Origin: a virus
Virus record (IMG/VR): IMGVR_UViG_3300042731_000990
Location: 1-64,000 of that record
DNA length: 64,000 nucleotides
Reading direction: 5' to 3' (one strand)
The translations under genes and the position numbers were made by a program. The notes below the pieces were generated by a model. It saw only the letters and a program-made list of their open reading frames with translations. It had not been told where the DNA came from and searched no databases. Numbering within the stretch: the stretch's first letter is position 1; each line of letters opens with the position of its first letter. Positions 7,261-32,000 of this stretch are shown piece after piece.

Positions 7261-10200
7261 ATGGCTAAGAAGAAGAATACATCTCCTGGTCTGGACCAGA
7301 CGTCAATCTTTAATAAAGGATTGATAAAAGACTTTTCAGATATTTTTACCCCTGAAGGTAGTTGGTCACATGCTCGTAATGCAGTTACTAATTCTGCTCA
7401 GGGTGACATGGGTGTCATTTCTAATGAGCCTAGTAATGTTCTATGTACTAAGGCACCTTATGATGTAATTGGTGCTATACATCTAGAAGATGACGAGTGG
7501 GTTATATATTCTACAGATGATGTTAATAGTGAGATAGGTTTATTTAAAGAGAAGACATGTGAGTATACAAAGATTGTAAATGCTGCTTGTTTAAACTTTA
7601 ATCGTGGTTATATGATCACAGGTGCATTCAGAGAAAACTTTGATTGTACTAGACAGGTATATTGGGATGATGGTTATAATCCTTCTAGGACATTAAACAT
7701 TGATGAGATCCCATATAAAAAGACAGAAAGGATAGTAGACGGTTGTGTACAAGAAACACTTACAGATGAAATCGAATGTGAAAAACTTTTATTGGCTCCT
7801 ATCTTTGAAGTACCATGTATTGAACTTAAAAGAGGAGACAACGCTGGGACTCTTGATAATGGATCTTATCAAGCAGCAATTGCCTACTCAGTCAACGGAC
7901 GAAGAGTAACAGACTACATTGCATTATCTAATGTATGTGCTGTCTTTGATCATGATAATGACCTGGGTTCTTTAGAAGTTAGAATTACAGGCTTAGAAAC
8001 AGACAGGTTTGAAGAATATGAACTTGTTATTATAGGTAATGTAGCAGCACAAGCTAATGCAAAAAGAATTGGTTTTTATAGTACCAATCAGAATGTAGTA
8101 TTCTTAGATACTATTGCTATTAGTTTACCTGCTGTACCGCTAGAAAATATACCGGTACTTAACCCTGCATATGAGAAGTCAGACAGAATGTTTGAAGTGG
8201 ATGACTACTTGGTACGTGTGGGTCTATATGAAAGATTTGATTTTAATTACCAGCCTTTAGCTAATAAGATAAAGACTGAGTGGGTAGCTGTAGCATATAA
8301 AGATGATTACTATTATAACGGGGGTCAGAACGCTGGTTACATGCGTGATGAGCAGTATGCTTTCTTTATTAGATGGGTATACAAAACAGGAGAGAGATCT
8401 TTTTCATATCACATACCTGGTAGAAAAGCTAATGCTGCTGATATATCTACTGTTGGTGGAGCTGATGTAATCTATCCATCAAAGAATAAAAAATGGCAGG
8501 TATACAATACAGCTAGTATTACAAGTACCACACAACAATCATTACAAGACAACGGTACTATCATTGCCAGAGGTAAGATGGGTTACTGGGAGTCTACAGA
8601 AAAATATCCTGATAGAAACTCAGAACGTTGGGGTGAACTATGTGGTAAAAACATTAGACATCATAAGATGCCTGATGATAGAATTATTCCTAGACACACA
8701 GATGACGGTAAGATTGTAATCATTGCTCCACAGTTTAGCAACATTGCACCACCATTAGATAACAATGGTAATGTTATTGAAGATGTAGTAGGATATGAGA
8801 TCTTAAGAGGTTCTCGTCTTGGTAATAAAACTATTGTAGGTAAGGGTCTTATTAATAACATGGGTGAGTACACTGTACCGGGTAACAATGATGAGAATGA
8901 AAAGACTTTGTTTGTTAACTATCCATTTAATGATCTTAGAGAGGATGACTATTTAACCTCATTTTTTGTTAGAGGTGCTAGTTTACTTAATAATAGTGAT
9001 TTAGGAACTGAGCGTGTAAGACCTTTTGATAGCTATAACCAAAAAAGATACTTTTCTTTTCACTCTCCTGAACTTTCTTTTTACAGAACTTTTTTGTCTG
9101 CACCAGAACTTAAGATTTATGGAGAAGCAACTGGTACAGCAAAAGGTACCTTTATAGAACCTAGCAAACATCCTAAGAATGTAATTATTTCTAATACAGC
9201 TGGTCTTATTTCTGTATTACTTGGTTTAGGATATTTAGATAGATACTTAAGGGGAAACAGAACATATACTATTCCAGGTGGAAATAGTTATGGTACGTTT
9301 ACTACTTACTTGAACACTCTAGCAAAGAATGTACCTTTTGCTAGTTACATTCCTGGTTTAGGTCAATATGCTGCTTTTGTAGGTAAAGCTACTACAACTC
9401 GTTTAGAGTCTAGTGACTATAATAATTTACCAGGCGCGTTGCGTAAGTTTATGTTTATTCCAGCATTAATAACTGGATTGTCTGAAGGTGCTGATATATT
9501 CTTACAGAGAATGTACGATATGTTACAGCCTAGACAACATGCATTACAACATGTGTCTCATGGTTTTTATAATAAGTTTAAACCTGCACAAGATGGTCAG
9601 ACTAGACGTTTGATTAAAGATTCTGTATATGCCAAACCTCATGTTCAACAGTTAAATTCTGATGTTACTGTAAATAACTTATTTAGAACGAGGACAGCTG
9701 TATTAGAATTAGGTAGAGATTTAGAAAACCCTAAAACTATTGATACATCAAGATATACTCTTAATGATATTGATAAAGATACTACATTATACTTAGGTGA
9801 AAGAGATCGTTTATACAATCCTTATAAGAACTTTACAGATCAGATTAGTACTACAATTGCTTCTCATTACTGTGCTTTAAAAATAGATAATGAAAATCAG
9901 TATGGTCAGTTATCCAGTGTAGTACAATTACCTACAGGTTGTTTAGATAAAGTAGTTGTGGGTAGTGTTAATCAAAGATATACATCTTCTATTGTATTTG
10001 GTGGTGATACATACATTAATCGTTATACTGAGAAGAACACAATGCCGTTCTTTAATAACTGGTTAACTACTCAACCAGATGGTTTTGCATTTGATTATAC
10101 AAACTATATTAATGTTCCTTATCCTAAATACTGGATGAATTCAGAACAGTGGGATCTTGGAGACTTTTTCCAAGGTCTTGGTACAGGTTTAGGTAACTGG

Positions 10201-12000
10201 GCAAGTAATTTGTTTAGAAGAGATGAGAATGATGAACTAAGAGAATCTATTCCTGGTATACAAACTTTACCTTCTAATATGCATAATTTAGATATGCGTA
10301 GACACGCAGGTACTTTGTTTACTCTTGGTGTAAGACACGGTTACATGTACTTGTTTAACTCTGGGGTAAGGGATTTTTATGTAGAGTCAGAAATTAATCT
10401 TGCTTACAGAGATCATAAAGACAGACCAGAGACTAGACACTATGATAGTAAAGATTACACAGATTTAGATTCATTATTTGACATTGATATTATTACATCT
10501 GGTAATTACTACTTGTATGATTTTTCTTTAAGCAATAACACATTCCCTACGTTTAAATACCCTCATAGTATTTTACAAGCATCATACTACGATCCTACCG
10601 TAGCTGAAGAATGTTTTTCTTACAGACCTTACAAGATTATTTACAGCTTACCTAACAGAGATGGTAGTATTAAAGATCCGTGGATTGTATTCTTACCTAA
10701 TAACTATAGAGAGTTTGGTAGTAAGCCTTCTAATATTAAGATGGCTGGTGATGGTAGTGCAATGATATTGTTTGAAAATGATTCTCCTGCTAGACTATTA
10801 CCTCAAGATACATTAAAGCTGGATCAAGGTACTAAGCTTAGTGTAGGTGATGGAGAGTTATTTAACAACCTTCAAGAGAATTTACTACGTACAGATGATG
10901 GTTATGAGTATGCAACGTGTCAAAGTGCATTTGGTGCAGCATCTACACCTGCTGGTATATTCTGGATTAGTTCTGATCAGGGTAAAATTTTCCAATACTC
11001 TAAAGGTATCAATGAGATTTCTAGATTGAATATGAAGTGGTGGTTAAGTAAATACTTGCCATTCCAGATTGTACAGGACTTCCCAACTTTTAATCTAAGA
11101 GATAATACGGTTATTGGTGCAGGTGTTACAACTATATACGATACTACAGAAGAGATAATATACTTTAGTAAAAAGGATTACAAGGTTAAGAAAGAGTTTG
11201 CAGCTAGATTAATTTATGATAAGTTAGATAAGTTTGTATTAGACGGTGTGTCTCAAGTTAGACTGACAGACTCTAAGTATTTTGACAATGCTTCTTGGAC
11301 TTTGAGTTATGATATTAAGAATAACTCTTGGATGTCATTCCATGATTGGCACCCTGATTTTGTTATTCCTGGTCAACAGCACTTCTTATCTGTTAAGTCC
11401 GGTAAGATTTATAAGCATAACAGTACATCAGAATCATTCTGTAACTTCTACGGTGTAGACTATCCGTTTGAAGTGGAGTTGTTCTCTGGTACAGGACAGA
11501 TGGTGTCTACTGTACGCAGTGTGGAATATCAACTGGAAACATATCAGTACAAGAATAATGGTACGGATGCACACCATGTATTAGACTTCAACTTTGATAG
11601 AGCTATTGTATATAACTCTGAGCAAGTTTCTGGTTTACTTAAACTAAACTTGTCTCCTAAAAACAATGCTCCTGAAATATTAAGTTACCCAAAAACTAAT
11701 ACAAGTAGTATTGATATTCTATACAGTAAGGAAGAAAACAAATACAGATTTAACCAGTTCTGGGATATTACAGATGACAGAGGTGAGTTTAGTTCACTAA
11801 GAAGAGCTATTTGGAATACGTCTCCAAGTGGATACATTAGAACACTAAACTCGTTTAATTTGGACTATACTAAAAACCCACATCAGCGTAAGAAATTTAG
11901 ACACTATGTGAACAGAGTTCTTTTGAGAAGAAATATTTCTGGTAGAAACCACATGATGTTAAACATTGCTACGATGAAGTTACAGCTATCACAACGATGA
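7261..12000 (+). CDS. Tail nozzle ('muzzle') protein, P22 gp10/T7 gp12-like
   Basis: 1579 residues. The N-terminus (GLIKDFSDIFTPEGSWSHAR, then NAVTNSAQGDMGVISNE) matches the opening of podophage nozzle proteins, where the chain starts a beta-propeller and describes a list of residues lining the tube. The body is rich in aromatic and Asp residues with repeating beta strands and lacks transmembrane helices except one hydrophobic stretch near residues 640-660 (NTAGLISVLLGLGYLD). Its length and its place after the ring genes fit the muzzle of crAss-like virions. It overlaps the downstream lysin gene by ATGA (11997-12000), tying tail tip and lysin expression together. Nozzle assignment is from family resemblance plus context. 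Confidence 0.65.
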   Translation: MAKKKNTSPGLDQTSIFNKGLIKDFSDIFTPEGSWSHARNAVTNSAQGDMGVISNEPSNVLCTKAPYDVIGAIHLEDDEWVIYSTDDVNSEIGLFKEKTCEYTKIVNAACLNFNRGYMITGAFRENFDCTRQVYWDDGYNPSRTLNIDEIPYKKTERIVDGCVQETLTDEIECEKLLLAPIFEVPCIELKRGDNAGTLDNGSYQAAIAYSVNGRRVTDYIALSNVCAVFDHDNDLGSLEVRITGLETDRFEEYELVIIGNVAAQANAKRIGFYSTNQNVVFLDTIAISLPAVPLENIPVLNPAYEKSDRMFEVDDYLVRVGLYERFDFNYQPLANKIKTEWVAVAYKDDYYYNGGQNAGYMRDEQYAFFIRWVYKTGERSFSYHIPGRKANAADISTVGGADVIYPSKNKKWQVYNTASITSTTQQSLQDNGTIIARGKMGYWESTEKYPDRNSERWGELCGKNIRHHKMPDDRIIPRHTDDGKIVIIAPQFSNIAPPLDNNGNVIEDVVGYEILRGSRLGNKTIVGKGLINNMGEYTVPGNNDENEKTLFVNYPFNDLREDDYLTSFFVRGASLLNNSDLGTERVRPFDSYNQKRYFSFHSPELSFYRTFLSAPELKIYGEATGTAKGTFIEPSKHPKNVIISNTAGLISVLLGLGYLDRYLRGNRTYTIPGGNSYGTFTTYLNTLAKNVPFASYIPGLGQYAAFVGKATTTRLESSDYNNLPGALRKFMFIPALITGLSEGADIFLQRMYDMLQPRQHALQHVSHGFYNKFKPAQDGQTRRLIKDSVYAKPHVQQLNSDVTVNNLFRTRTAVLELGRDLENPKTIDTSRYTLNDIDKDTTLYLGERDRLYNPYKNFTDQISTTIASHYCALKIDNENQYGQLSSVVQLPTGCLDKVVVGSVNQRYTSSIVFGGDTYINRYTEKNTMPFFNNWLTTQPDGFAFDYTNYINVPYPKYWMNSEQWDLGDFFQGLGTGLGNWASNLFRRDENDELRESIPGIQTLPSNMHNLDMRRHAGTLFTLGVRHGYMYLFNSGVRDFYVESEINLAYRDHKDRPETRHYDSKDYTDLDSLFDIDIITSGNYYLYDFSLSNNTFPTFKYPHSILQASYYDPTVAEECFSYRPYKIIYSLPNRDGSIKDPWIVFLPNNYREFGSKPSNIKMAGDGSAMILFENDSPARLLPQDTLKLDQGTKLSVGDGELFNNLQENLLRTDDGYEYATCQSAFGAASTPAGIFWISSDQGKIFQYSKGINEISRLNMKWWLSKYLPFQIVQDFPTFNLRDNTVIGAGVTTIYDTTEEIIYFSKKDYKVKKEFAARLIYDKLDKFVLDGVSQVRLTDSKYFDNASWTLSYDIKNNSWMSFHDWHPDFVIPGQQHFLSVKSGKIYKHNSTSESFCNFYGVDYPFEVELFSGTGQMVSTVRSVEYQLETYQYKNNGTDAHHVLDFNFDRAIVYNSEQVSGLLKLNLSPKNNAPEILSYPKTNTSSIDILYSKEENKYRFNQFWDITDDRGEFSSLRRAIWNTSPSGYIRTLNSFNLDYTKNPHQRKKFRHYVNRVLLRRNISGRNHMMLNIATMKLQLSQR

Positions 12001-15000
12001 GAAAGAAGTTTGACTACAGATTTGATAAAGGATTACCTGGTGGAGCTAACCAAGTAAAAGGTAGAGTAAAAGGTTCTGTTACACAGACAGGGTACAAAAG
12101 AAACTCTCCTGACGTTAATAATGATTTTAATATTATTCCGTCTCCTTATATCACAATGGTAGGTGTAGACTTTCCTGTATACGGTGAAGATAACTTAGGT
12201 AACGGTCAGATGATGTACCCTGGTAATGAGTATATGTTTCCAGGTGATTACGTTACAGAATTACCAGCATTTGGTAAGGGTGGTCTTAAGCAATGGTTTG
12301 CTGAGAAGTGGGTAGATGTAAAGACAGGTAAAGAGTGTGGTAGATCTGGTAAAGATAAAAACGGTAGACCTTATCCTGCATGTAGACCAAGTAGAAGAGT
12401 AAATGAAACTACTCCTAAGACTACATCAGAAATGTCAGCATCTGAAAAAGCTAAGTTTAAAAGAAAGAAGACTTCAGGTAAACGTATTGATTATAATCAT
12501 AAACGTGCACAATATGGTGGTAGACAAGGAGATGTATTTCAAGAAGTGGATACTTATATCAAACCAGGTCAAAGAATTCAACCTAACTGGGCTCAGTCTC
12601 CAGTAAGTGTAACTAACTATACTTTTGGTAAAAACTTAGTAGATGATGAGCCTAGATTTTCATTAGGTCTTCAAGGTACAGATATTTTAGATGAAATTAA
12701 ATATCGTGCTGACGCTATAGGTAGTATAGGTATAGGTGTAGGAAATCGTAAGGGTAAAAGTTTTAGACCTGCAGGTGAAAATTTAAGAGCAGGTCTTAGA
12801 GGTCAAGCTAGCTGGCAGGGTGTACCAGGTAATGCTATTGAAAACCTGTTTGGTAGACGCAGTGGTCTTGACTGGAGAGGAAGCTTTGAAGGAGAAGCAG
12901 GTCTTGCATATGCTAATGGTGCAGTAAGACCTTATATGAGTGTTATGCCTCAAACCAATGTTTTTTTAAATGATAATCTATCTCTTGGTATAGGTTATGA
13001 AATGAGAGGTAGATATGATAAAAACTTTGACGAGCCTGTTTATGGTAATACTGACACAGGTAGCATAGCTCCTATAAGTCAAAGAGATGGTTACTCTGGT
13101 ATGGGTAGAGGTGCTGCTAGATTTTCATTAAACTATGATTTAGGTAATGGTGACTTTATTGAAGGTTATTATGCTAAACCTGATCCTTTATATCAAGGTA
13201 GTATGCCAGGTGTACGTGAAATGTTAGCATTAGAATCTGAACAACCTAGATTTGGTGTAAGACTTAGAAAGAGTTTTAAACAAGGTGGTCAACTACCTAA
13301 AGCTCAACAAGGTAAAAAGATTGCAGATGTAGCCAATCAAATGGTATTAAATGGTGAAGACGGTACTCGTCCACCTTTAAATATTATTGATAATATGGTT
13401 GCTCTATTTGATGAAGACGGTGTATGTAGAGATAACACTTGTGTTAATGTTGTAAAAGATATTTATAATAGAGCCGGTTATAATGTAATACCAGAAGGTG
13501 TATACAATAACAGAGCTTTTAAAGATGATTATGATTCTTATGGGTTACAATTGGTAGCTCCTCAAAATAAAGGCAGATATATTTTAGATGATTTACAGCC
13601 TGGAGATATTATACAATATCGTCATGATTCAAATAGTGGAGGTGCTTTAGGAAAAGAGGGTTATCCTTTCCATTTAGGTGTTTATACTGAGAATGGTCAA
13701 TACGTTAGTGATGGTTCTAAAGATGATCCTATTAAAAAGCAAAGTGTTTTTTATTATGATGATGGTACTTCTAAACCTCCTTTTGATGTATTTAGATTAA
13801 AACAATTAGGAGGTTCAATTCCTAAAGCTCAGGGTGGTATTTATACTGTACGACCTGGTGATACTTTTAACGGTATTGCAAATAGTACAGGTATTGGTCA
13901 AGAAGCTTTACGCGTAGCTAACCCAGGTATAGACTATAATAAAATACAAGTTGGTCAAGTTTTAGCAGCTCCTGGTTTGATGGGTCCACAAACCCCTCCT
14001 GTAGAAGCTCAGACTAAAACAAAGAAAAAGAAAACAACAGGTAACTTATCCTTTAATGATTTGCTGTATAGACAGGCATATCAAGAATCTAAGTTTAATC
14101 CTAATGCTAAATCTCCTAAAGGTTATAAAGGATTTACACAAATAGGTTCCGGTATAATGCAGGACTACGCAAAAGCTACTGGTGATACACGTACTAATCC
14201 TTATGATCCTGATTATGCTATTGCTGTACAGAAATGGGCAATGGATAAGTATTTAAATAATACAGGTTGGATTAAAGGTTCCGATAAAGTAAAACAAGCT
14301 AAAGCTCTTGCAGCATATAACTGGGGTCCGGGTAATACATTAAAGTATTTAAATGCTCAGAAAGAAAAAGGTACTGATATTTACGCTGATGATTTAAGTT
14401 GGGTATCTGGTATGCCTAAAGAAACTAGAGATTACATAGATCATATTTTAGGACTTGAATACCCTACTAAAGATAAATGGGAAGCTAATTTCCAACGTGA
14501 TACTACAGACTCTCCGTATAGTAAATACTATAAACAACAAGGTGGTGAAACTTTATACGATTACGTAAAAGGTTTAGGTTACAGTCCTACATTTGCGAAT
14601 AGAAAAAAGATATTTGCTGACTACTTTGATACAGAGTACACAGGTACTGCTAAACAAAATATAGAGCTTCTAAATCAGTTAAAGTCTGGTAAATTAAATA
14701 TCAATGAATACGCACAACGTGCTGATGTTCAACCTGTTAGAGAAGCTGTAATACAACAACCTGCACTTGCTCCACAACCTTCTGTAAGTAGTGAAGCGGT
14801 TAGAGGTACAGTTATGAATCCAACACCTGCACCAGAAACTACAGCAGAACCTGTAAGTAGTTATAGAGGTGCAACATCCTTAACTACGGATGATGATTTA
14901 CAAAAAATAAGAGATGGTGTTGTAAGAAGAGCTTATGATGTTATTTCTGGTAAAGAAGCTCCTTATAGGTTACCTTCTAATATAGCAAATGCTCCATCAA

Positions 15001-16295
15001 TGGAGGGTAAGAACCCTGATAACTTTACGTGTATTGGTGGGGTTTGTTCTTTATATAAAGATGAAGGTGTTTTGGATCAGGTTATTACTAGTAACACAGA
15101 GTTTGCCAGAACTGCTTATAATTCTGGTTTTAGTAGAAAGTCTACACGATTAGAAAATCTAAAACCTGGAGACGTGATTCAGCACTATGGTAGAAATAAT
15201 AATGAGGGTACTCCTATTCCTACACATGCTCAAATGTTTTTAGGTCTTGATGACGATGGTAACTATTTATTTTTTGATAACTATGAACGTACTGCTTCTA
15301 GGGCACCTAGCGATAACAAAAGAGATGCTCTAAGAACTTACAGTCCTGAGAAAATGCAAAGCTTTGTTGAGAAAGGTAAAGCAGGTAAGTTAAATGGAGT
15401 TGCCTTTTACCACTTGAATAAAGAGGATGCTTATGATCCTGAAGAACAAGTTAGAAGAGCTAGAGCTCAAGCTAATAAACAAAGACGTTTACCTGGTGAA
15501 TTATATATAGATGAGCAGTATGATGGTAAAGATTACGATCAAGAAATACAGAGCTCTCAAGATGTACCATATATCTATAGAGGTAAAAAAGACGGGAGTG
15601 ATTTTGAAAATGATCTAGTAGGTTTATTCAACAATTCAGAAATGGATGAAAGAATGAAATCTACATTTGGTATTACAGAGCAAACGTTAAATGATATTAA
15701 ACCTATTGTTTATGGTATCATATCTCAAGAATCTAATATGGATAGAGGCGCTAGATTTGAAGGTGCTGAAGGTCTTTTAGATAAAACTAGAAAACGTGGT
15801 AGACAGATTAAATATAAGCTTGAAAATATTATAGCTCCTACAGGGGTTGGAGATTTATCATACGGTCCTGGTTCTGTAAGATGGAGTGGATTAAGACGTG
15901 GTGCTAAAAAACAAATAGGTAAACGCAAAAACATGACCACCCCTGAAGGTTCTTACTTTGCTATAGTTGACCTCCTTTTACAAAGTGCAAATTTAGGTGA
16001 ACGTTACGTTGGTGAAGACTTAAATCCTGATTTGTTAGATAAGAACCCGTGGTATCCTGCTTTATATGCTTATAATGGTCAGATGTCTGGTAGCAGAAAA
16101 GGAAAGACCTGGGGTCTTAAGAAAGGATATACTTTTGATGGCTCAAGTTATTCTGCAGATCCTGGAAGCTATCCTGATAAAGTACAAGGGTATGCTAATC
16201 AACTTCAGAGATTTGTACCTATTGATTGGGAGCCAACTCCAGATAATTATTACGACCCTAGATTTGTACCAGTGGTCAAGCCTAAAGCCAAGTAG
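11997..16295 (+). CDS. Multidomain virion-associated cell-wall lysin (two peptidase-like and two lysozyme-like modules, LysM)
   Basis: 1432 residues. Modules in order: a basic DUF5872-like segment at about 101-155 (FAEKWVDVKTGKECGRSG); a glycine-rich beta region to about 425; an NlpC/P60- or CHAP-like peptidase at about 470-600 with Cys477/Cys482 and His559 (YPFHLGVY); LysM at about 615-662 (YTVRPGDTFNGIANSTG); a soluble lytic transglycosylase-like domain at about 680-830 with catalytic-type Glu697 (QESKFNPNAKS) and ALAAYNWGPGN; a second peptidase-like domain at about 1000-1120 with Cys1012/Cys1017 and His1077; and a second lysozyme-like domain from about 1225 with Glu1245 (GIISQESNMD). It probably opens peptidoglycan during DNA delivery. 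Which cysteine is catalytic is unresolved. Confidence 0.8.
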   Translation: MRKKFDYRFDKGLPGGANQVKGRVKGSVTQTGYKRNSPDVNNDFNIIPSPYITMVGVDFPVYGEDNLGNGQMMYPGNEYMFPGDYVTELPAFGKGGLKQWFAEKWVDVKTGKECGRSGKDKNGRPYPACRPSRRVNETTPKTTSEMSASEKAKFKRKKTSGKRIDYNHKRAQYGGRQGDVFQEVDTYIKPGQRIQPNWAQSPVSVTNYTFGKNLVDDEPRFSLGLQGTDILDEIKYRADAIGSIGIGVGNRKGKSFRPAGENLRAGLRGQASWQGVPGNAIENLFGRRSGLDWRGSFEGEAGLAYANGAVRPYMSVMPQTNVFLNDNLSLGIGYEMRGRYDKNFDEPVYGNTDTGSIAPISQRDGYSGMGRGAARFSLNYDLGNGDFIEGYYAKPDPLYQGSMPGVREMLALESEQPRFGVRLRKSFKQGGQLPKAQQGKKIADVANQMVLNGEDGTRPPLNIIDNMVALFDEDGVCRDNTCVNVVKDIYNRAGYNVIPEGVYNNRAFKDDYDSYGLQLVAPQNKGRYILDDLQPGDIIQYRHDSNSGGALGKEGYPFHLGVYTENGQYVSDGSKDDPIKKQSVFYYDDGTSKPPFDVFRLKQLGGSIPKAQGGIYTVRPGDTFNGIANSTGIGQEALRVANPGIDYNKIQVGQVLAAPGLMGPQTPPVEAQTKTKKKKTTGNLSFNDLLYRQAYQESKFNPNAKSPKGYKGFTQIGSGIMQDYAKATGDTRTNPYDPDYAIAVQKWAMDKYLNNTGWIKGSDKVKQAKALAAYNWGPGNTLKYLNAQKEKGTDIYADDLSWVSGMPKETRDYIDHILGLEYPTKDKWEANFQRDTTDSPYSKYYKQQGGETLYDYVKGLGYSPTFANRKKIFADYFDTEYTGTAKQNIELLNQLKSGKLNINEYAQRADVQPVREAVIQQPALAPQPSVSSEAVRGTVMNPTPAPETTAEPVSSYRGATSLTTDDDLQKIRDGVVRRAYDVISGKEAPYRLPSNIANAPSMEGKNPDNFTCIGGVCSLYKDEGVLDQVITSNTEFARTAYNSGFSRKSTRLENLKPGDVIQHYGRNNNEGTPIPTHAQMFLGLDDDGNYLFFDNYERTASRAPSDNKRDALRTYSPEKMQSFVEKGKAGKLNGVAFYHLNKEDAYDPEEQVRRARAQANKQRRLPGELYIDEQYDGKDYDQEIQSSQDVPYIYRGKKDGSDFENDLVGLFNNSEMDERMKSTFGITEQTLNDIKPIVYGIISQESNMDRGARFEGAEGLLDKTRKRGRQIKYKLENIIAPTGVGDLSYGPGSVRWSGLRRGAKKQIGKRKNMTTPEGSYFAIVDLLLQSANLGERYVGEDLNPDLLDKNPWYPALYAYNGQMSGSRKGKTWGLKKGYTFDGSSYSADPGSYPDKVQGYANQLQRFVPIDWEPTPDNYYDPRFVPVVKPKAK

Positions 16296-16351: not shown

Positions 16352-17806
16352 ATGTCAAAGAATGTCCCCACTAATAAGAAGCTTTATGCTAGAGTAAAAG
16401 CAGAAGCTAAAAGAAAATTTGATAGATGGCCTTCTGCTTATGGTTCTGCCTGGCTTGTAAGAGAATACAAGAAACGTGGTGGTGGTTACCGTAAAGCTGA
16501 AATGGGTATGGAAGTAGAGAACCCTTATGCTGATATGTATAGTGTAGGTGGTGGTATTATGACTGGTGATTATGAAATGGGTTATGGGGGCATGCCTGAA
16601 TATGGTTACGGTGGTCAAGAATACTCTGAAGGTGGTATGCCTGAATATAAAAAAGGTGGAGGTATTCCTCAACGTTATAGAAATTTAGGTTTTACTAAAG
16701 TAGGTGCTAAGAAAAAGTCTACACGTCCTGGTAAAAAATGGATGGTGCTTGCCAAGAAAGGTGATAAGTATAAAATTGTTCACGGTGGTGATAGCAACAT
16801 GAAAGATTTTAAACAACACGGTTCTGCTAAAAGAAAGAAAAGATTTTGGGATAGAATGGGTGGAAGAAATTCTGCTAAAGCTAAAGATCCGTTTAGCCCA
16901 CTATACTGGCACAAAAGATTTGGCACATGGGCTGAAGGTGGTGAAATGGAATTTGAACCACACATGATGTATGATCCTGAAACAGGTAAAGGTTACATGG
17001 CTGAGAAATACGAAGACCATCTTAAAATGGATAAGATGGGTTTTGGACATGAAGCTCCTGAAATGGGTTATGGTGGTTACCAATATGGTAACGGTGGTTA
17101 TAAGTATGCTAAAGGTGGTATAAATAATCCAGGCTTTAGAGCACTACCTCCAGAAGTACAAGATAAGATTAGAGCCAACATGAAGATGGGAGGTATGCCT
17201 TGTTATGAATGTGGTGGTTATGCTGAAGATGGTACTACTGTGGGTGTCCCTACTAAATCTATTTTTGGTCAAGCTCAAGGTGCTGAGCTTATGGATATAA
17301 TTCCACCTCAAGGTTATGGAGAAGGTATGTCTGTATTTGGTAGACAGTTTGAAACTCCGGCTGAAAGTTATGGTAATGCTTTTGCTAATAAATACACTAG
17401 TGGTTATTTATTTAGAAATGGTAAATTTAACCCAACCTTACAAATTAATGATCCTAAGAGTGATTCTACTTTACAATTAGGTTTAGCAGATGCAGCTAAT
17501 GCAATTACTGGTGTAGGAGCATTTATGGGTAGACGTGCTAAAGAATCACGTCAGTTACAAGATAATAAGAGACGCCAGTTTACTGATAACTTATATGATC
17601 CTATTAGAGCTGGTGAAATGGGTTCACGTGGTGATTACAATATCTCAGGTCAGTTTAGACCAGATAGAGTAGCTAACTGGAATCCTTATATGGCTGAGTC
17701 ATTTAATACTACTCCTTTCTATCAAGAAGGTGGTGTAATGGAAATGTCAGACGCAGAGATAGAAAGACTAAGAGCAATGGGTGCAGACATTGAAATACTA
17801 GATTAA
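16352..17806 (+). CDS. Gly/Tyr-rich virion protein with DUF5872-like N-terminus
   Basis: 484 residues. Residues 1-50 (NKKLYARVKAEAKRKFDRWP, then SAYGSAWLVREYKKRGGG) resemble DUF5872, a small basic domain common in large DNA viruses and phages. Residues about 60-110 are Gly/Tyr/Met repeats (GYGGMPEYGYGG). Residues about 115-190 hold a basic module with KKWMVLAKKGDKYKIVHGG and DPFSPLYWHKRFGTWAEGG, a pattern I know from other phage virion proteins. The C-terminus ends in GGVMEMSDAEIERLRAMGAD, a tail motif also seen in Bacteroidota phages. Probably a virion or packaged cargo component; no enzyme motif is seen. One base separates it from the next gene. Confidence 0.6.
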   Translation: MSKNVPTNKKLYARVKAEAKRKFDRWPSAYGSAWLVREYKKRGGGYRKAEMGMEVENPYADMYSVGGGIMTGDYEMGYGGMPEYGYGGQEYSEGGMPEYKKGGGIPQRYRNLGFTKVGAKKKSTRPGKKWMVLAKKGDKYKIVHGGDSNMKDFKQHGSAKRKKRFWDRMGGRNSAKAKDPFSPLYWHKRFGTWAEGGEMEFEPHMMYDPETGKGYMAEKYEDHLKMDKMGFGHEAPEMGYGGYQYGNGGYKYAKGGINNPGFRALPPEVQDKIRANMKMGGMPCYECGGYAEDGTTVGVPTKSIFGQAQGAELMDIIPPQGYGEGMSVFGRQFETPAESYGNAFANKYTSGYLFRNGKFNPTLQINDPKSDSTLQLGLADAANAITGVGAFMGRRAKESRQLQDNKRRQFTDNLYDPIRAGEMGSRGDYNISGQFRPDRVANWNPYMAESFNTTPFYQEGGVMEMSDAEIERLRAMGADIEILD

Positions 17807-17807
17807 G

Positions 17808-20195
17808 ATGAAAAGAAAAGTTAAAATTAATAAGCTACCTAAAGGGTACATGCAAGAAGGAGGATCTGTTAATAAGACCCTTCAACCTGTACCTAGAGAG
17901 GAAGCTAACCTTGAAGCAGAAAAAGGTGAAGTAGCTTTGCTTAAACAAGGTGGTGAACCAATGACATATAACATTGGTGGTAAACGTCACTCTGAAGGTG
18001 GTACACCTCTTAATCTAGAACCAGGCAGTAGAATTTTTTCTGATACTAAGAAGATGAAAATTAAGGATAAGAATATCCTTGCTGAGTTTGGTGCTACTAA
18101 ACCTGCTACTCCTGCTAAGTTAGCTAAGAAGTATAATGTAAATGATTATCAAGCTTCTTTGGCTAATCCGTTTGCTGATGATATTGAAAAGAATACTGCA
18201 CGTATGATGATTGATAAGAATGAAGAAAAGTTAGATAACTTGTTCTTTGTTCAAGAAGCTAAGAAAGGATTTCCACAAGGTGTTCCTGGGCAGCAGATGA
18301 GTCAAGCAGGTATGATGGCTAAGTATGGTGCAGAGTTACCAAAAGCTCAAGAAGGTGCAAGAGCAGGTTCTTCTTTAGCAGAAAGAGAAAAAAAGCTTCA
18401 AGAATTAGAGTATCAAAGAAAAATGGTTTCTTCAAATCCTAATTTGACAGCTGTTGAAAAAGACAAACAAATGACTGAGCTTAATAGAGCAATAGCTATA
18501 GAGGCCCAGTACATTGGTAAAATGAGACAAGAACCTGCAGCACCTCAATCTACTGAAGAGGATCCTGCTACGTCTAGTCCAACTTTTCAATGGACTAAAC
18601 CTAGTCAAAATTTTGGTGATGCTATGTTTGGAGATCCTACTGCTAATTTTCCTCAAACACCAGTCTTACCATTTGATACAACTCCATATCAAGTAACACC
18701 TCCTGCATCTACAGAACCTTCATCTGCTGGTTCAGGAAGTTCTAACACATCTTCTACAAGTTCTAGTAATAGAGATTCTCAAAGTAGAGATCCTAGAATG
18801 TACGGTAGTATAGAAGCTTATGAAGGTAGTCGTGCCAATACACCTACAGGACAATCTAACAGATTTGATTACGGAAATCAATTTTTTGACAGATGGGCTA
18901 CTGTAATTCCTGGCATTACAGAAATGACTAATAAAGAAGCACAGAGAGCCACTTATGAGTATATATTAAAAAACAATCCGGAGCAAGCTGCAGAAATGTG
19001 GAAAGCATTTGGATTAACTAAAGCAGGTTTTGCAGATCCTGAACTGGCTGCTAAATATAAGGATGGTATAATTAGTGGTGATCTTACATTAGAAGATTTA
19101 CAAGCTTTAGAAAAAGCTTATGTAGATGGTTATTTTGGAGCAAGACAAATGTTACCGGAAGAACCTACTCTCATACCTCCTCCTCCAAAGACCCCTCCTA
19201 CAGAGATCCCTCCCACAGAGATTCCTCCTCTCACACCTCCTAGAGTAAGAGATCCTAAACCATTTGAACAGGATCTTAGAAATGAAAGATTGATTGGTAG
19301 AAACAGAATGTCAGAACGTTTACGTTTACCTTGGAGAGGTAGACTAAGAGCACGTACTGCAGATCCTACATACCAATCTGATGTTCAGCAACAGCAGAAT
19401 CTTTTATCTGGTTTAAATACTGCATCAGAAGCTGCATCTACGTTTGGTGCTAATCCTGGTGCTGTAATGTCTAACGTAGCTAGGTTATCAGGTCTTACCG
19501 GTACAGAGTCTAACAAGATTGCAGCTGCTCTACAAAGAGAGAATACGGGTATAGCTAATACATTTGAACAGTTTAATGCTAAAGAACAATCAGCTACTGA
19601 TGTACGTAACATGGCAAATGCTCAAGACCTTTATGACAATACAGTTAAGGCTCAGGAAGTATTTGATGAAAAAATGAGACGTTATAACATTTTAGGTACT
19701 GCTGCTCGTAATGCTACGGATACTAACCTTGCACGTATTAAAGCAATGAATAAGTTAAATCCTTTGTTTACTATTAACACAGGGTTAGGTCCTCAGTTTG
19801 GTGATATTCAGTTTCAACCAGGTGTATCTGCAGCTATGTTTGATCCAAATCAAGCAAGTGCTTCTGAAAGTAGAAAAGAATACTTAAAAGGATTTAGACA
19901 ACAAATCTTAGAAGATCCTTCTTATGGTGATTCAGATAAAAGAATAGATCTTTTGAAGAAGATAGATGAAGAGTTGATGGGTTTAGGAACTAACTCTTCT
20001 GCTAATAATCTTCAGCAACAAGCTGCTCAAATGTATGGAGCAGGAATGCAAGGTGTAGGTTTTGCTATGCCTGGTATGAATCCATTTGCTGTAGGTATTA
20101 ATCCTGGATATGGTAATCCATATATGAATCCTTACGGAATGGGTATGAGATCTCCATATGGATTTAGATATGGAGGAAGATATGATGAGGAATAA
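17808..20195 (+). CDS. Large virion/cargo protein with RHSEGGTPLNL motif
   Basis: 795 residues. The N-terminal 110 residues (LQPVPREEANLEAEKGEVAL, then GGKRHSEGGTPLNLEPGSR, IFSDTKKMKIKDK) match a module I recognise from crAss-like and related Bacteroidota phage virion proteins; its function is unknown. A GAELPKAQEG linker at about 174-183 resembles linkers in the lysin at 11997. A Pro/Thr-rich stretch (about 455-485) separates two mostly helical halves. The C-terminus is Met/Gly/Tyr/Pro-rich (MNPFAVGINPGYGNPYMNPY). Position directly before the giant cargo genes suggests packaging in or ejection from the capsid. No membrane segment or catalytic motif is seen. Confidence 0.6.
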   Translation: MKRKVKINKLPKGYMQEGGSVNKTLQPVPREEANLEAEKGEVALLKQGGEPMTYNIGGKRHSEGGTPLNLEPGSRIFSDTKKMKIKDKNILAEFGATKPATPAKLAKKYNVNDYQASLANPFADDIEKNTARMMIDKNEEKLDNLFFVQEAKKGFPQGVPGQQMSQAGMMAKYGAELPKAQEGARAGSSLAEREKKLQELEYQRKMVSSNPNLTAVEKDKQMTELNRAIAIEAQYIGKMRQEPAAPQSTEEDPATSSPTFQWTKPSQNFGDAMFGDPTANFPQTPVLPFDTTPYQVTPPASTEPSSAGSGSSNTSSTSSSNRDSQSRDPRMYGSIEAYEGSRANTPTGQSNRFDYGNQFFDRWATVIPGITEMTNKEAQRATYEYILKNNPEQAAEMWKAFGLTKAGFADPELAAKYKDGIISGDLTLEDLQALEKAYVDGYFGARQMLPEEPTLIPPPPKTPPTEIPPTEIPPLTPPRVRDPKPFEQDLRNERLIGRNRMSERLRLPWRGRLRARTADPTYQSDVQQQQNLLSGLNTASEAASTFGANPGAVMSNVARLSGLTGTESNKIAAALQRENTGIANTFEQFNAKEQSATDVRNMANAQDLYDNTVKAQEVFDEKMRRYNILGTAARNATDTNLARIKAMNKLNPLFTINTGLGPQFGDIQFQPGVSAAMFDPNQASASESRKEYLKGFRQQILEDPSYGDSDKRIDLLKKIDEELMGLGTNSSANNLQQQAAQMYGAGMQGVGFAMPGMNPFAVGINPGYGNPYMNPYGMGMRSPYGFRYGGRYDEE

Positions 20196-23032: not shown

Positions 23033-26000
23033 ATGGATCTTAATCTACCTGGAGGAGTTCAGCAAAACACTGAGCCTGAAAAGACTACACCATCATCTAA
23101 TGATACTTATTCTATTTTTTCTAAAGGTGTTCAGGCAAATTTAGGTACGTACGAAGGTACTGCTTTAGATCCTGCAAAACCTTTGTTTACAGAATATGCT
23201 GATCAACCTTTTGGTTTATATGAAACCAATTACTTTAGATATGCTAACCGTAGTTCATTTGATCGTTTAGGTTTTTCTCCTTTTGTAGATAATGAAGCTA
23301 TATATAATGCAGATGCTTCTTGGTATGGTGAGATAGGTAGAGGTATTAGAGGTGCTGTTGCATTGACTGGTGTTAGTGCTCTAGATACTTTACGTAGTAC
23401 TGGAGATTTGTTAAGAGGAGATTGGGAGAGTTTTATATCTCCAGATACTAGTACAGCTTTAGAATTTTCAGACATCATGTCTAGATATGGATCTACTAAA
23501 GGTGGCGCCACAGGGTTTATTGCAAATAACTTAATTAGTACGGGTTTTGTAACTGGTATGGTCTTGGGTTCTATTCCTGAGTATGCTGCAGAAGCTTTAA
23601 TCACTGCTGAAGCTGGTGGTGTAGGTGCCTTTGCAGGTATTGCTAATACTGGTAGAAAAATATTTAGTGGTTTAAGAACAGCAGACAAAGCACTAGATGC
23701 TGTAAAAGCTGGAAGAAAAGCTTCTACTGTTCTTAATCAAGCCGGTAAATCTCAGAAAGCTGCAGGAGCTTTTGCAAGAGTTTTGAAGCAGCAGGCTGAT
23801 AATATTATCAATGTTGGAGGTAACAAGGTTGTAAACATGCTAAATCCTTTTGGTAATACTACTGACTTTTTAGTAGATATGGCCAGGGCTGCAAAAGCTG
23901 GTGAAGCATTACCTAGTTTAGCTAAAGGTTCTGGTGCAATGCTCAGAGATATGTCATTGTTTAAAGCTGCAATGACTGAAGCTACTCTTGAAGGTGGTTT
24001 TACCTCTAATGAAGTCAGAGATAGAGCTATTGCAGAATTTACAGAAAAGAATGGTAGAAGACCTAATGAAGATGAGTTAGCTCAAATTCAAGATGCAGCT
24101 AACCTAGCAGGTCATAGAAACGTTATGGGTAACCTACCTGTAGTATTACTTACAGATAAGATGGTCTTTGAACCACTTATGAAAATGGGTAGAACTACAA
24201 GTAGAGTATTTGGTTACAATCCCGTAAGTAGCAATCTTGCTAGTAGAGGTATTAGAAACGTTGACGGTACTTTTACAAGTAAGAAAATTTCTGGTGCTAA
24301 CTTTAAAGAAACCATGAAGCTGAGAAGTAAAGCAGCTATCAAAGGTTTACTTAGTCCTAGTGGTTATGTACGTAGAGGTAAAGCTGTTTTAAAGGCAGGT
24401 GCTGGTGAAGGTATCCAAGAGGTGTTCCAAGAAATTTCAGGTGGTGTATTTGAAGAAGAAGGACTAGAAACTGCAAGAACAGGTAGAACTAACTTCTTGT
24501 TTAACTCATATGCTGATAACTATAAGAACTTAGTAGAAGATCCTAGCCAGATGCCTTTCTGGTCTATGAGTGGTTATCTTGGTGATAACGTTATGAAGCA
24601 GTTTTCTGGACAGGGTGTAGAAACATTCTTGTCTGGTTTGTTTATTGGTGGTCTTGTAGGAGGCGGTGGTTCTAAACTTACTAAACTGATGTCTTTGTCT
24701 ACTGCAAAAGGTAGAGCAAATTATCAAGCAGCTAAGGCAGAACAAGATAGCTTAACAGAGGACCTAGTAAACATTCTTAATGAGAATATTAAAGATCCTT
24801 TTGCTTTATTTAATCCTAGAGTAAAGAATCATATTCAAGCTAAAGAACTTCTTAAAGAACAAACTGAAGCATTGCTAGCAGGGGACTTTAAGAAAGCTAA
24901 AGATATTGCAGAAGAGCTTAGATTTAATCATCTTAGCACAGCTCTACAAACCGGTACCTACGATATTTTTAAGAGTAAGTTAGAAGAGATGCGTCAGTTA
25001 GATGATGCTGGTATCTCAGAAGCTACTGGTATTGAGAATGCAAATGAAGCTAGAGAAAGGTTAGAAGAAAGTATATCTTATGCTGAGAGTCTTAAGGAAA
25101 GATATGATCAGGCTAATAAAAAGTTTACCAATCCTTTTAATCCAACAGCATATAATCCTAATACTGAAGAGTACAATAGAAATAAGATTAACTATCTAGC
25201 TTTTGAAGATGCTCGTAGAGATTATATTTTCTTAGCAGAGTCTGCTGATAAGACTCAAGAGAGAATGCAGAACCTAAGATCTGAAATGGGTGCTTCAGGT
25301 ATTACTTCTAACTGGTCTGCAGCTGATGTAGATTCTTTAACTAGTGTTGCTAATCTTAATAGAGAGATTGGTTTACTAGAAGAAGAAATTCTTGTAGGTA
25401 AAGGAGCTCAAACAGAAGAAGAGAAAAAGTTACTTAATGAAAAGAAAGCTAAGTTAAAATCATTAAAGAGCTACAAGTCTGAGTTAGACAAGTACATTAA
25501 CCTGGTTACTAAATTAGAAACAGACAGTTCTCCAGCTGCTGATGCAAGAAGAGAGAAAGCATATGAAGCTTTGAAAGCTAAGTTTAGTAATTACGTTAAT
25601 ACTATTAATGAAGCTTCAGAGAATCCGCAAGAGATTAGTCAAGAAACTTTAGATAATGTTTTTGATTCTATTGTGGATCATCATCTCCTAGAAAAAGATT
25701 ATGCTATTGCATCTAGATCTTTAAACATTTTAAATAATCCTGCAGCTCTTACAGAGTTGGCTTTGAGAAAAGCAGCTATTGCAGAAGATGTTTTTGTTAA
25801 TAGAAGAAAGCATATTAGAAAGTCTGTTAAGACCTTTAAAGAAAAACTAGGTTCTAATCTAGACATTCTTAATAGACTAAAAGGATTGGGTGTTGTTATA
25901 CCTCACGATCAGCTAGAAGCATTTATTGAAAAAGGTGAAATGCCTACAGAGCTTTTCTCTTTGTATAATGGTGGTGAGATTAACCTTACAAAAGGTAAGG

Positions 26001-29000
26001 GTAAACAAGCTATGCAACTCATTACGGAGTATGCAGAAGCTCAGCAAGAAAGATATGCAGAAAAGCAGAAAGAGGCAGAAGCTGAGGCTGCAGAACAGAA
26101 GGCTAAAGAAGAAGCTGCTAAGAAAAACAATGCTACTCCTGAACAACAAGAGAACAACCGTACTGAAAGTGCTAAAGAAGATCTCAAGAAAGAAGATAAA
26201 TCTTTAACAGTTGTTCAAGCATTTGCACAATTAGCTCAACAAAATAAAGGTATTGCTGTATTACTAGCCAATAGAATGGCTTATAATGAAACCCAGCAAA
26301 CACAGGAAGAGTTTTTAAACACCCCTGACGGTGCTAAGATTGTTGCTATTATTCAATCTGTTGTAGAAGCATATGATGTTTCTCAGTCTACTCAACCTAT
26401 TCATATATGGTTAAGAGGTAATGGAGCTGCTCAAAGTATTATTATAGCAGATGCTATTGCTAAGTACTACCCTAATGCAGAAACTTCTGATATTATTGCT
26501 CAGTTGGCAGGGTCTGTAGAAAGACGTGGTGATATTGCTAAAGCTGTAGAAGATATTGAAAACAGCTCTGATGTAATTACTTCTGTTACCAAAGTCTATG
26601 AAGATGCTACTAATGGTTATTATGTAATTGAGATTAAGTCTAACATTGCTGGTCAGAAAAATACAGAATACTCTATTGTAGATGCTTCTGGTGCTCCTAT
26701 TCAATCATTAATGGAGCCGTTAGTAGGAACAGAAGTTACTACTAGTAAAGAAGAAATTATTAATTACTTAAAAGGTTTAGGATCTACAGAGACTGCAACA
26801 ACAGAAACCCCTAAAGGTAAGAAGCCTTTTGTATTTGATGGTAGAACATTATATGAAGGTCAGACACTTTACATTGGTAACCGTAAAGTAACCGTTGATA
26901 GAAATCAAACTGTTGATGAAAACGGTATTGTACAACGTCTTAGAGTAAGAGATAAAAACGGTATTGTTTTAAGAGATGCTATTACAAGCATGTCTGATGT
27001 ACGTGTAGAAGCTCCTGCTAAGATTAGTAACAAAGCTCAAAGGCTTGGTAAATTTACTTTTGGAAGTACTGCTCAAAATAGAAAGCTGTCTGATAAAGAA
27101 TTAACTGAGCTTACTGAAGCAAGAATGCAGATGACTGAAGAAGAGTTCATGCAGTCTTTATCAGTAGAGGTTACTTACAATGCTCAGTATGTACCAGTTT
27201 CTCAAGCCGGTGCTCATACAAACGCTAAGTTTAATGATAAGAATGAGGAGAATCCTCGTATTAAACTTAATGCTGATAGTAGTACAAGAGAACGTGCTGA
27301 GATACAGCTTGTGTTTAAGAATCCAATGACGGGTTCTTCTATTGTTTTGTCTTACTTAAACGATCCTCTTCAATATGCATTCTTAGATAAGTCTGGTAAT
27401 TATGTACCAAACTTTAACGAAGGACTTGCTACAGATTCAGAATTATTCTTTGGAGCTGAAAAGGAAATTGTAGATAGATATAAAAGACATTTGTCTTTAG
27501 TTAACTACTTAGTAGCTGAAGCTCAAAAAGGTAATACAACTTTCTCATTAGACTCTTTAGAAGGTTATGGGTTTAGACTAGGAAACTTTAGTTACAACTT
27601 TGCAACTAAACTTAATGAGCCTAAAGCAGCTTGGGAAGAGGTGGCTTCTAAATTGGGATATTCTCCTACTGACAAGGTTGTCATCTTAGATAGAAAGTTT
27701 ATTAGCGGTACAGCTATTACTGAAGAAAACTTTACTGTTGTTAACGGTGAATTTGAAAAAGGTGAAGCTAAACAGTATAGAGAGGCTTTAAAATCTAACC
27801 CATATGTACTAAATGGTTTAGGTAGATATGTAGCAATTAAACTAGTACCTGGTGCTAAACCGGTTGTTATTGAATTAAGTCCTAAGAATCTTACAGAAGA
27901 AAGGCTAGACACTCTGGTTAATCAGTTAGGTACAAAGATAGAAGACATCCGTGCTAAGCTCGCAGAAGGTAAAGATGTTACTAAAGAGGTTATTGAATTT
28001 AATGATTCTTTTAATAACCAGTTTTATGTGGGTTATACTATATCAGCTGGTTCTAGAGCTCAAAACTTTAATGTAGCTCTTGAAGTTAGGATGAATGGTA
28101 CTCTTAGAGTAAACATATCACCTAACAATATAGGAAGAACTCAGATTGCAGGATTTGATTTCAATTTGAATGCTGCTCCTAAATCATTTGCTGAGTTGTT
28201 GTCAGCTGTTAATACAGCTATAGAAGCTAATAATAATCAAATTAGAAAGCCTCAAAGAGCTGCTCTTTTAAAACCGTTTGATGCTTCTATGTTCTTTGAA
28301 AATATTAACAAAGACTTAGATGCTTCAGATCTTTCTAACTTTAAAACAAACGTAACCGCTTCTCCTTTAAAGGCCCCTTCAGTAATTATTACTCAAGCTA
28401 GTTTAGAAAATTTAGGAGGTATTGAAGGAGTTTCATTAGAAGAGGTTCCAGGCTCTAAAGTAGAATCAGAACCTGTTAATGATCAGTTAGAAGCTTTAGG
28501 TAGTGCTTCTTCACAAGCAAGTATAGAGGCAGAAGCAGAAGGTGAAGTAGAAGCTGAAGTAGAAGTTTCAGGTATAGATCAGCAGATCAACGAGGTTAAA
28601 AAGAAAATAAAGGAAAGAAGAAAAGGTCTTAAGCCTAGTCAGGTTGCTAAGGATGAACAGTTGAAAAAACTACATCAGCAACTAAAAGATCTTAGAGATA
28701 AAAAGAATACTGCTAATAAGGTAGGTAATGACTTTACTTTTGAGAATGAGCAGCAGCTTGAAGATTTCTTAGGTTGGGTACGTGCTGTACTTCCAGATTT
28801 TATTACAGTAGAATCTGTAGATATCATTCGTGATAGAATGGTAAAAGAAGGTATGACTGTTGGTAGGTTCTTTACACAGATCAGACCAGGTGCTAAAGGT
28901 ATTTCTGAACTAGAAGGTGTGATAGAAATCACGAAAGATTCTCCTTTTAAATACCATGAAGCATTCCATGCTGTATTTAGAATGCTACTATCTGATCAAG

Positions 29001-32000
29001 AAATTCAGAAAGTTTTAAAGTTAGGTGAGAAAGAACTTAGGGCAGACCTTAGAAAGAAAGGTATGACAATGGATCAGGCAATTGCAAAGATGGTTAAAAC
29101 ATCTTCATTGTATGATGGTATGTCACGTCAAGAACTTAAAGAAAGATTGATTGAAGAGTTCCTTGCTGATAAATTTGAAGAGTTCAAAAAAGATCCTAAG
29201 AATACTAAGATTAATACTGAAGTTAAATCACTCTTCCGTAAGATTCTTGATTTCTTCATTGAGTTGTTTAATGATTACCCTGTAGATAGAATTACTAGTG
29301 TAGATCAATTATTTAGAACTATTGATTCTGGTGAACTAAAAGGACGTGGTGTTTCTAGCAATCAGTTTACAAGAGACGCAGCCTTTAGTGATAATATGGC
29401 TTATGCTGTGTTAGAGTATACAGAAGATACCGGTGGTACGGATGTAGCCAGATATCTCAATGCTGAAGATTCTCAATACATATTATCTTCTATTACAGCT
29501 CTTGTAGATAGAGCAAGAAGAGAAACAGAAGAAGGTAGTATTGAAGACCTTACTTACGAAGCTTTAGATACAGTATCTAATTTATTTGATAGTGATATTA
29601 AGACATATGAGAACCCTGCATTGCAAAAACGTGCTGATCAGATCTATGATGTTTTAGGTAATCCTGAAGCTATTGCATCTATTGTAGAGTATGTAGAAGA
29701 TCAGATTGCACAGTTTGATGCTGCAGATCAGTTTATGAAAGATAGTTTGGATGCTCTTGAGGATGAGTTTGGTGGTTCAGCTAGAAGTAGTTGGTCTGAA
29801 GAAGCAGAATCAATTGGAGGTCTTACATCTTTGCCAACATTAGTACGTGCAGTAATTGGTACTACTCCTGTTGCAGAGATAGATGCTTTTGGTAATGAGT
29901 TCTATATAGATGCTGAAGGTAATCTTTTAACAGAGCGTATTATTGTAGCTGCTGATGCTCCTACAGTTTACAACGGTTTGGTTAGAATTTTAGCAGACTC
30001 TTCTAGTGATGTAGATATGTTTGAAAGACTACAGGCCCAAAGAGTAATGCAGTCTAAATCTACAAGTAAATCGCAAACTGTTACCTTTATTGACAAGCTG
30101 TTTGACACATTAGGTGTATCTGTATTACCAGATGGGTCTTTAGATCTAAACAATATTAAAAGACCTCAGCTTTTCCAAGCATTTGTAAGAGCCTTTGACG
30201 TAAGTAAAAGAACTTACAACTTTATGGCTATTGATATTAAGTCTGGTAGAGTTGTAACATTTGAGTCCAACAGATCTAATGAAGCTGTAACCCAGTTACA
30301 AACTTGGCAATCTGCTCACGATGCTAATGTAGGTTCTATAACTTCTGATAGTGCTGCCCGTGCTTCTACTATTTTGAATGAAGTTAAAGATGTATTTAAT
30401 GAATCTGAGTACAGTGCTAATGAAGTTGCTGAATTACTTCAAGAGTTTGCTGATATTACCGGTATAGAAATTTCTCCTGCATTTGTAGAATATTCTTATT
30501 ACAAGTCTAGATGGATGGAAGGTAAATTAGATCTTGGTAGTTTAGAAGATCAAGATTTAGCCTTTGTAATTACCAACACAAAGGTTCCAGCAATGACAAA
30601 AGAAGACTTGTCAAATATTGCTAACAGCTTTACAGTAAGTAAAGGACGCCAGTTGTTCTTGAAAAACTTTGAAGACGTTGAAAGAACAGAAGAAAATCAA
30701 GCGTCATTTACAGTAGGTGGTAGATTTAAAGTATTAGCAGAAGGTAATGTGTTCTTTAATGAGAACATTGATACTACTACATTCAACAATGCTAATAATA
30801 AGAAGATTCAAACATATCAAGCTCGTAATGTAATTACTAAAGTTATTCAATCATTGAAAGATCCTGCAGTAAGAGAACGTATTATGAACGATCCTTACTT
30901 GGCAGAGAAGCAATACTTATTGAGTAACGAAGACTTTATGGCTATTATTGATGAGCTCACTACTGAGAACATTGATGGTATTGGTGAAAGAAAATTATCT
31001 AGTCAAGATAAAGAGGCCTTTGGTAGCACAGATAGAGGTAGAGTATACAAGGGTATGACACCACGTGAGTTTATGACTCAGCAGTTATTTTCTTATACAA
31101 GTAAGATGAAGTCTGTTAACGGTGTTATTACTGTACCTACTTTGATCAGAATTATGGAGGCTTCTAGTCAAGGTATGACTGTAGGTCTACCTATTACAGA
31201 TGCTGTTGAGTATAACTTTAAATCAGAAAATGGTTACGAGTTTACTGATAGTTATTTAGATGCTATCATTACAGAGGTTGAAAGAGACTTGGCTAGAATT
31301 ACTAGAGTTGCCGCAGAGATTGATGACCCTAGAGTTCCACAACTAATGAACTACCACAACGGTGCATTAAGAGGTTTAAAACTAGGTGAAACAGGTGATC
31401 TTATTTCAGAAGAGCTTAAACAAAAGCTTGAAGAAAAAGCTCAGAAAGGTGAAGATATTAGTGTTGCTGATGCTAAGAAACTTAGAAAAGAAATTGCTGA
31501 AGGTTTAAATGCTCAGTTTAATTTATATAAAGATAAACTTGCTAACGAGGGTATTCTTGCAGAGTCTGTGACACTGCGTCAAATGTTACCGGGTTATGCT
31601 CCTACACAAGGTTCTTCTGCTGTAGTATCTGTAAAGAAAGGAGCTTCACTAGAACTTGTAGCTCATTCTAAAGATGAAGGTAAAGCTGTTAGAGATAAGA
31701 AACTATCTCATAATATTGCTCAGTATTTCTTTAATGATTACTTGAATACACTTGCTATTAACCAGTTGGTTACAGGTGATCCTGCTGAATCATTTAAAGG
31801 TCCTATTGATATTGTAAAACGTGCTAAAGGTTATAATGTTTCAGGTATCAAAGCTGCTCATAGCATTGTTCCTGCAGATCCTAATCTGGGTATTACAAGC
31901 ACGTTTGATCAGTTAGGTGACTTAGAGCATATTACATTTGAAGATGATGCTTACACAGACGGTCAGTTTGCTGATAAACAAGATCGTGATGATGGTCAGC

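Follow-up and report, generated by a model that had tools for sequence, protein, structure and literature searches.

Phage phi29 has a tail-tip protein, gp13, in which a lysozyme and a peptidase are joined. For the crAss-like phage phicrAss001, a channel of cargo proteins was proposed from cryo-EM without mention of a lysozyme or of peptidoglycan, and the cargo protein C1 (gp45), located in both tail and capsid, was proposed to be ejected first (PMC10172136). Domain shuffling is a known theme (PMC10684548). How crAss-like phages cross the envelope after muzzle opening is not settled, and the locus analysed here carries likely wall cutters. No paper describing it was found in a search of mostly open-access literature.

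Locus and reading frame

The window (64,000 nucleotides) comes from a virus record of 68.5 kb (IMGVR_UViG_3300042731_000990). The features below are numbered along the window, with residue numbers referring to the protein encoded at 11997-16295.

7261-12000, plus strand: muzzle (nozzle) gene, 1579 aa (Pfam crAss_MUZ, 4.6e-23); the next start is overlapped by ATGA
11997-16295, plus strand: mosaic multi-hydrolase protein, 1432 aa
11997-12272, plus strand: conserved N-terminal tag of post-muzzle proteins, residues 1-92 (profile hits)
12273-12530, plus strand: second part of DUF5872, residues 93-178 (Pfam 1.5e-11, profile positions 53-113; 16 hits in loci)
12594-13283, plus strand: tentative beta-rich, outer-membrane-barrel-like region, residues 200-429 (approximate; alternating hydropathy)
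13284-13313, plus strand: linker GGQLPKAQQG, residues 430-439 (motif search)
13383-13805, plus strand: NlpC/P60-like peptidase module 1, residues 463-603, C477/C482 and H559 (Pfam, PDB, PHROG, hhalign)
13809-13838, plus strand: linker GGSIPKAQGG, residues 605-614 (motif search)
13842-13967, plus strand: LysM, residues 616-657 (Pfam 2.8e-10; PDB chitinase LysM 1.1e-5)
14058-14378, plus strand: SLT lytic transglycosylase, residues 688-794, Glu697 (Pfam 4.8e-15)
14541-14915, plus strand: accessory domain, residues 849-973 (about 845-973; phrog_2307 6e-8; 16 hits in loci)
15009-15356, plus strand: probable papain-like peptidase module 2, residues 1005-1120, C1012/C1017 and H1077 (weaker than module 1)
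15489-16196, plus strand: likely second lysozyme-like module, residues 1165-1400, Glu1245 (hhalign to relatives, model)
16352-17806, plus strand: next gene, first part of DUF5872 plus DUF5754 (Pfam 4.1e-10, profile positions 1-43; 38 hits in loci)
17808-20195, plus strand: probable cargo-type gene with the related linker ELPKAQEG (81 hits in loci)

The 1432-residue frame is a genuine open reading frame, its start overlapping the stop of the upstream gene. It lies right behind the nozzle gene, as the sequence-only reading had placed it, and that gene is a crassvirus muzzle gene, with tblastn matches in Cellulophaga, Leptolyngbya and gut crassvirus records. The residues named in that reading (C477, C482, H559, E697, C1012, C1017, H1077 and E1245) were all found at their positions. 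The muzzles at L005 9001-16935 and L006 9001-17400 (2644 and 2799 aa; L-numbers denote loci) are far longer than that of the window and contain inserts which, by eye, resemble von Willebrand-type domains.

Genes of relatives at the place of 17808-20195 match phicrAss001 gp45 (e.g. L049, L118 and L065). The frame at 17808-20195 itself gave no match to gp45 at E<=1. phicrAss001 has no counterpart of the multi-hydrolase gene behind its muzzle, a point against the entry role proposed below. Judged by these sequence matches, the gene at 11997-16295 is an extra gene at the cargo locus, between the muzzle and the gp45-like genes, since in relatives it is the downstream genes that gp45 matches. Further along the window, a 4521-aa frame (23033-36598) with a weak match to phicrAss001 gp47 (0.0058) probably encodes a giant virion RNA-polymerase-associated protein.

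Wall-active modules

The LysM and SLT assignments are certain at the level of sequence, both lying far above the curated Pfam cut-offs (40.4 bits against 20.9 for LysM and 55.6 against 21.3 for the GH23-type SLT), in agreement with the LysM and lytic transglycosylase first proposed for this protein. Glu697 lies within an E-S motif that is invariant in an alignment with six relatives, and the SLT part also matched PHROG_342 ('internal virion protein with endolysin domain', 1.6e-9).

For module 1, the Pfam NLPC_P60 match (0.025) was under the cut-off (15 bits against 23), the top PDB sequence match was an NlpC/P60 peptidase (E 0.099) and phrog_1015 ('tail protein with lysin activity') was matched at 0.012. 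The hhalign comparison with four E. coli NlpC/P60 proteins (MepS, NlpC, MepH and YafL) returned 80% (E 1.4e-5) over the GD-H part, about a third of the domain, with the cysteine part lying outside the alignment; unrelated parts of the same protein, used as controls, returned 0.1% and 1%. The motif order is C477/C482, then GD (PGDIIQ), then H-x-G-[IV]-Y (FHLGVY). The NLPC_P60 profile had no match across the whole records of nine phages. The peptidase-like character first ascribed to this module is well supported by four partly independent sequence comparisons with clean controls, and it is labelled 'NlpC/P60-like' rather than a family member because the Pfam match is below the curated cut-off.

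Module 2 matched no Pfam or PHROG family, and hhalign against the same E. coli set returned 15.6% (E 0.0017). Its Cys, Gly and His columns align with those of module 1 and of modules from six other phages (18-27% identity). In one of these loci, L042, the papain-like module reached Amidase_6 at 6e-4, just under the cut-off. A low-confidence model of module 2 retrieved the papain-like structure 9l5u first by Foldseek (E 0.68, non-significant) and gave Z 4.5 with the NlpC/P60 chain 3npf. The second peptidase first proposed is supported by the Cys/Gly/His columns that it has in common with relatives, while the database searches and hhalign (15.6%) gave no firm match. Alignment and model together suggest that module 2 is probably a papain-like peptidase with predicted activity. 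The protein contains six cysteines in total, with C-x4-C occurring only twice (C477/C482 and C1012/C1017). This spacing is kept in all of about ten papain-like modules inspected by eye, so the pair matters; either cysteine may be the nucleophile, or the two may form a disulfide, as the sequence-only reading had suggested.

The C-terminal module was compared by hhalign with a profile of relatives' C-terminal modules built without the window sequence (79%, E 1.6e-5). The alignment of this family (A6) contains an invariant E-S, which includes E1245, and an S-x-G motif. Neither the module nor the members of its crassvirus-specific family matched a significant database family. PDB profile searches with A6 and with a further alignment, A7, returned nothing relevant, and a Foldseek comparison with predicted structures of viral proteins had no significant hit. 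The core of the model has a pLDDT of 70-86, and among its four best structural matches are a GH23 chitinase, MltF and the phi6 lysin, at Z 5.0-5.8. As matches below Z 8 can arise by chance, 'lysozyme-like' is likely rather than demonstrated and the activity is a predicted one; the earlier assignment is supported by the family of relatives with its invariant E-S, whereas no database family was matched and the GH23-type structural matches are weak.

Tag, accessory and beta-rich regions

The tag, the DUF5872 part, the beta-rich region, the domain at 845-973 and the repeated linkers were absent from the sequence-only reading. DUF5872 is divided between adjacent genes, with profile positions 53-113 in the hydrolase protein and 1-43 in 16352-17806; Prochlorococcus phages and phages that infect marine Rhodobacteraceae have the second part as well. 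The phrog_2307 match to the accessory domain covers the first part of the profile, and the domain is possibly wall-binding.

Residues 200-429 showed alternating hydropathy (z 1.9), and so did similar stretches in four relatives (z 1.1-4.2), a pattern that the enzymatic modules do not share; the regions were picked by eye, and this result is a lead only. They had no Pfam barrel match. Sub-threshold hits came from the region of L004 alone, whose barrel-like module matched Autotransporter at 1.9e-4, below the cut-off; across 51 records the Autotransporter profile had no match at E<=0.05 and the OMP_b-brl_2 profile had two weak ones. An AlphaFold2 model of residues 180-612, predicted without an alignment, had a pLDDT of 32 and was discarded. 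The outer-membrane-barrel-like designation of this region is tentative.

A mosaic gene family

The gene behind the muzzle was taken from 80 muzzle-bearing contigs. In about 80 crassvirus relatives it consists of a conserved tag of about 90 residues, sometimes located inside the chain, and exchangeable modules (SLT, LysM, YkuD, papain-like, lysozyme-like, SET and barrel-like), with lengths of 253 to 2400 aa, the shortest being partly clipped by contig ends. The tag profile had 61 hits in the first 91 loci and found 81 distinct proteins after SLT-bearing contigs were added. In Cellulophaga phage phi17:2 (L009, 23704-26391) the tag sits in the 895-aa product of the second gene behind the muzzle; this isolate is a possible laboratory model. 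A Pfam search of 66 post-muzzle proteins identified DUF5872 in 13, LysM in 10, SLT in 8, YkuD in 7 and SET in 8, together with phage lysozymes, a single VanY and a single ART-PolyVal. SLT and a second lysozyme family occur together in 13 distinct relatives, nine of them also carrying YkuD, in a sample biased towards SLT because SLT had itself served as a search seed. YkuD L,D-transpeptidase-like modules with NGCxNGxC are encoded at L005 16935-22145, L065 16288-22374 and L082 9102-14090, each followed by the lysozyme-like family, and SET-domain methyltransferase-like modules stand at the protein start in L017, L084, L056, L063 and L073, replacing the tag or beside it. Sequence searches of isolate phages and IMG/VR identified no direct relatives of module 1, module 2, the C-terminal module or the beta-rich region.

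The muzzles of L003 and L004 are 97% identical, whereas the post-muzzle gene of L004 is longer by about 408 aa, a difference that ends at linker-like sites. The sequences compared document rapid gain and loss of modules in the post-muzzle gene. L042 and L016 carry a single array of tag, LysM, SLT, PG_binding, papain-like and lysozyme-like modules, with the first peptidase absent, and L122 has the order papain-like, lysozyme-like, LysM, SLT; the array of the window is therefore one of several arrangements.

These arrays also bear on the earlier proposal of a duplicated peptidase and muramidase unit, which is not supported. SLT and the C-terminal lysozyme-like module did not match by sequence, and their profiles gave 0.2-0.3%; the two peptidases have in common one 21-residue stretch around PGD[IV]IQ. 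A tandem duplication of the unit was rejected on these sequence and profile comparisons. Module 1 looks as if it was gained separately and placed between two linkers, because L042 and L016 carry the array without it.

The linker GGx[LI]PKAQxG brackets module 1 on both sides. The motif GGx[LI]PKA[QK], searched as GGxxPKA[QK], occurred 28 times (16 in post-muzzle proteins and 12 in later genes), occurrences that are partly non-independent as closely related contigs are in the set, and was absent both from the muzzle and upstream frames (411,006 aa) and from shuffled sequences. Enrichment of plain GG was rejected, its frequency not being clearly above composition; only the longer linker is enriched. 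The linker may be a recombination joint, a flexible spacer or a cleavage site.

Role of the protein

In this crAss-like phage the protein is probably an injected (ejection- or cargo-type) virion component that opens host peptidoglycan at entry; its packaging into the virion is suggested by the gene position and the homologous modules. The tag would keep the protein associated with the muzzle or the cargo inside the virion. Upon ejection, LysM and perhaps the 845-973 domain would bind the wall. Glycan strands would be the target of SLT (Glu697) and of the C-terminal lysozyme-like module (Glu1245), peptide stems that of one or two papain-like modules, and together the cuts would open a hole through which DNA and the virion RNA polymerase fit. 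The module set would have been built by swapping at short GG-containing linkers rather than by duplication of a peptidase and muramidase pair. The original proposal of several wall-active modules in one virion-type protein, of modularity and of a likely role at entry is borne out in outline. For its 'tail protein', 'cargo/ejection protein' is the better description because the following genes match cargo C1 gp45 in relatives.

A large modular endolysin-type protein acting in lysis at the end of infection is improbable. The best PHROG match of the SLT part is phrog_669 ('endolysin'), other contigs (L103, L107 and L111) have short frames of the same family with a single SLT and modularity is typical of endolysins (PMC10684548), but the gene is placed in the structural block, with the muzzle on one side and cargo-type genes on the other, the tag is conserved and non-enzymatic, the size reaches 2400 aa and relatives carry non-wall modules (SET, ADP-ribosyltransferase). 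More probable, though still rather unlikely, is that module 2 and the second lysozyme have no activity and serve for wall binding alone, which would leave the remainder of the entry role intact. Neither has a database family, and the S-x-G-x-x-Q signature of relatives is S-Y-G-P-G-S in the C-terminal module, which may be inactive because the Q is replaced by S; against this, even distant relatives keep Glu1245 and the Cys/Gly/His columns without change.

It is likewise improbable that the papain-like modules act on the phage's own proteins, cutting at the linkers and so releasing modules while the virion assembles or once the protein has been injected. Cleavage after GG is known for some papain-fold enzymes (adenovirus protease, C39 leader peptidases), and the bracketing of module 1 and the confinement of the linker to post-muzzle and downstream genes would suit such a function, as would the peptidases often carried by polyvalent proteins for self-processing (PMC5512222). 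However, module 1 resembles wall NlpC/P60 enzymes, the linker is also present in phages that yielded no papain-like module, and the linkers may be mere flexible joints. Little probability is likewise given to a cassette array of injected modules freed by linker cleavage, some arrays with a host-inserting outer-membrane-type beta-barrel; if true, one changeable protein would combine an outer-membrane pore with host-matched wall cutters.

Comparison with known systems

As an entry protein, the product looks like the phage's changeable kit for passing the host envelope. The locus is recognisable through the conserved tag and varies more rapidly in content than the muzzle does, so that host wall type can be tested against module set across many phages. 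What appears to be new is a variant set of virion-associated wall hydrolases with fast-changing modules and predicted activity. As in phi29 gp13, glycan and peptide cutting would be joined, here with more modules, a LysM and in another phage lineage. Podovirus internal virion proteins of the T7 gp16 type likewise carry an SLT-type transglycosylase in an ejected virion protein; no similarity to T7 gp16 was noticed outside SLT, and the window protein differs in combining up to four catalytic-type modules and LysM in one chain that is mosaic between close relatives. Module 1 aligns with E. coli NlpC/P60 enzymes of the MepS type (C40) at GD, at H and over the segment behind it, and has C-x4-C where enzymes such as MepS have the single Cys of a DCSG motif. 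Polyvalent proteins are likewise long, injected and multi-domain, with a mix of lysozyme, peptidase and effector domains, and relatives here carry SET and ART-PolyVal; the window protein consists mostly of wall-active modules, and the domains reported for polyvalent proteins (PMC5512222) do not seem to include the crassvirus tag. A counterpart in position, phicrAss001 gp45, lies at the same locus directly behind the muzzle and has no reported wall-hydrolase module (PMC10172136).
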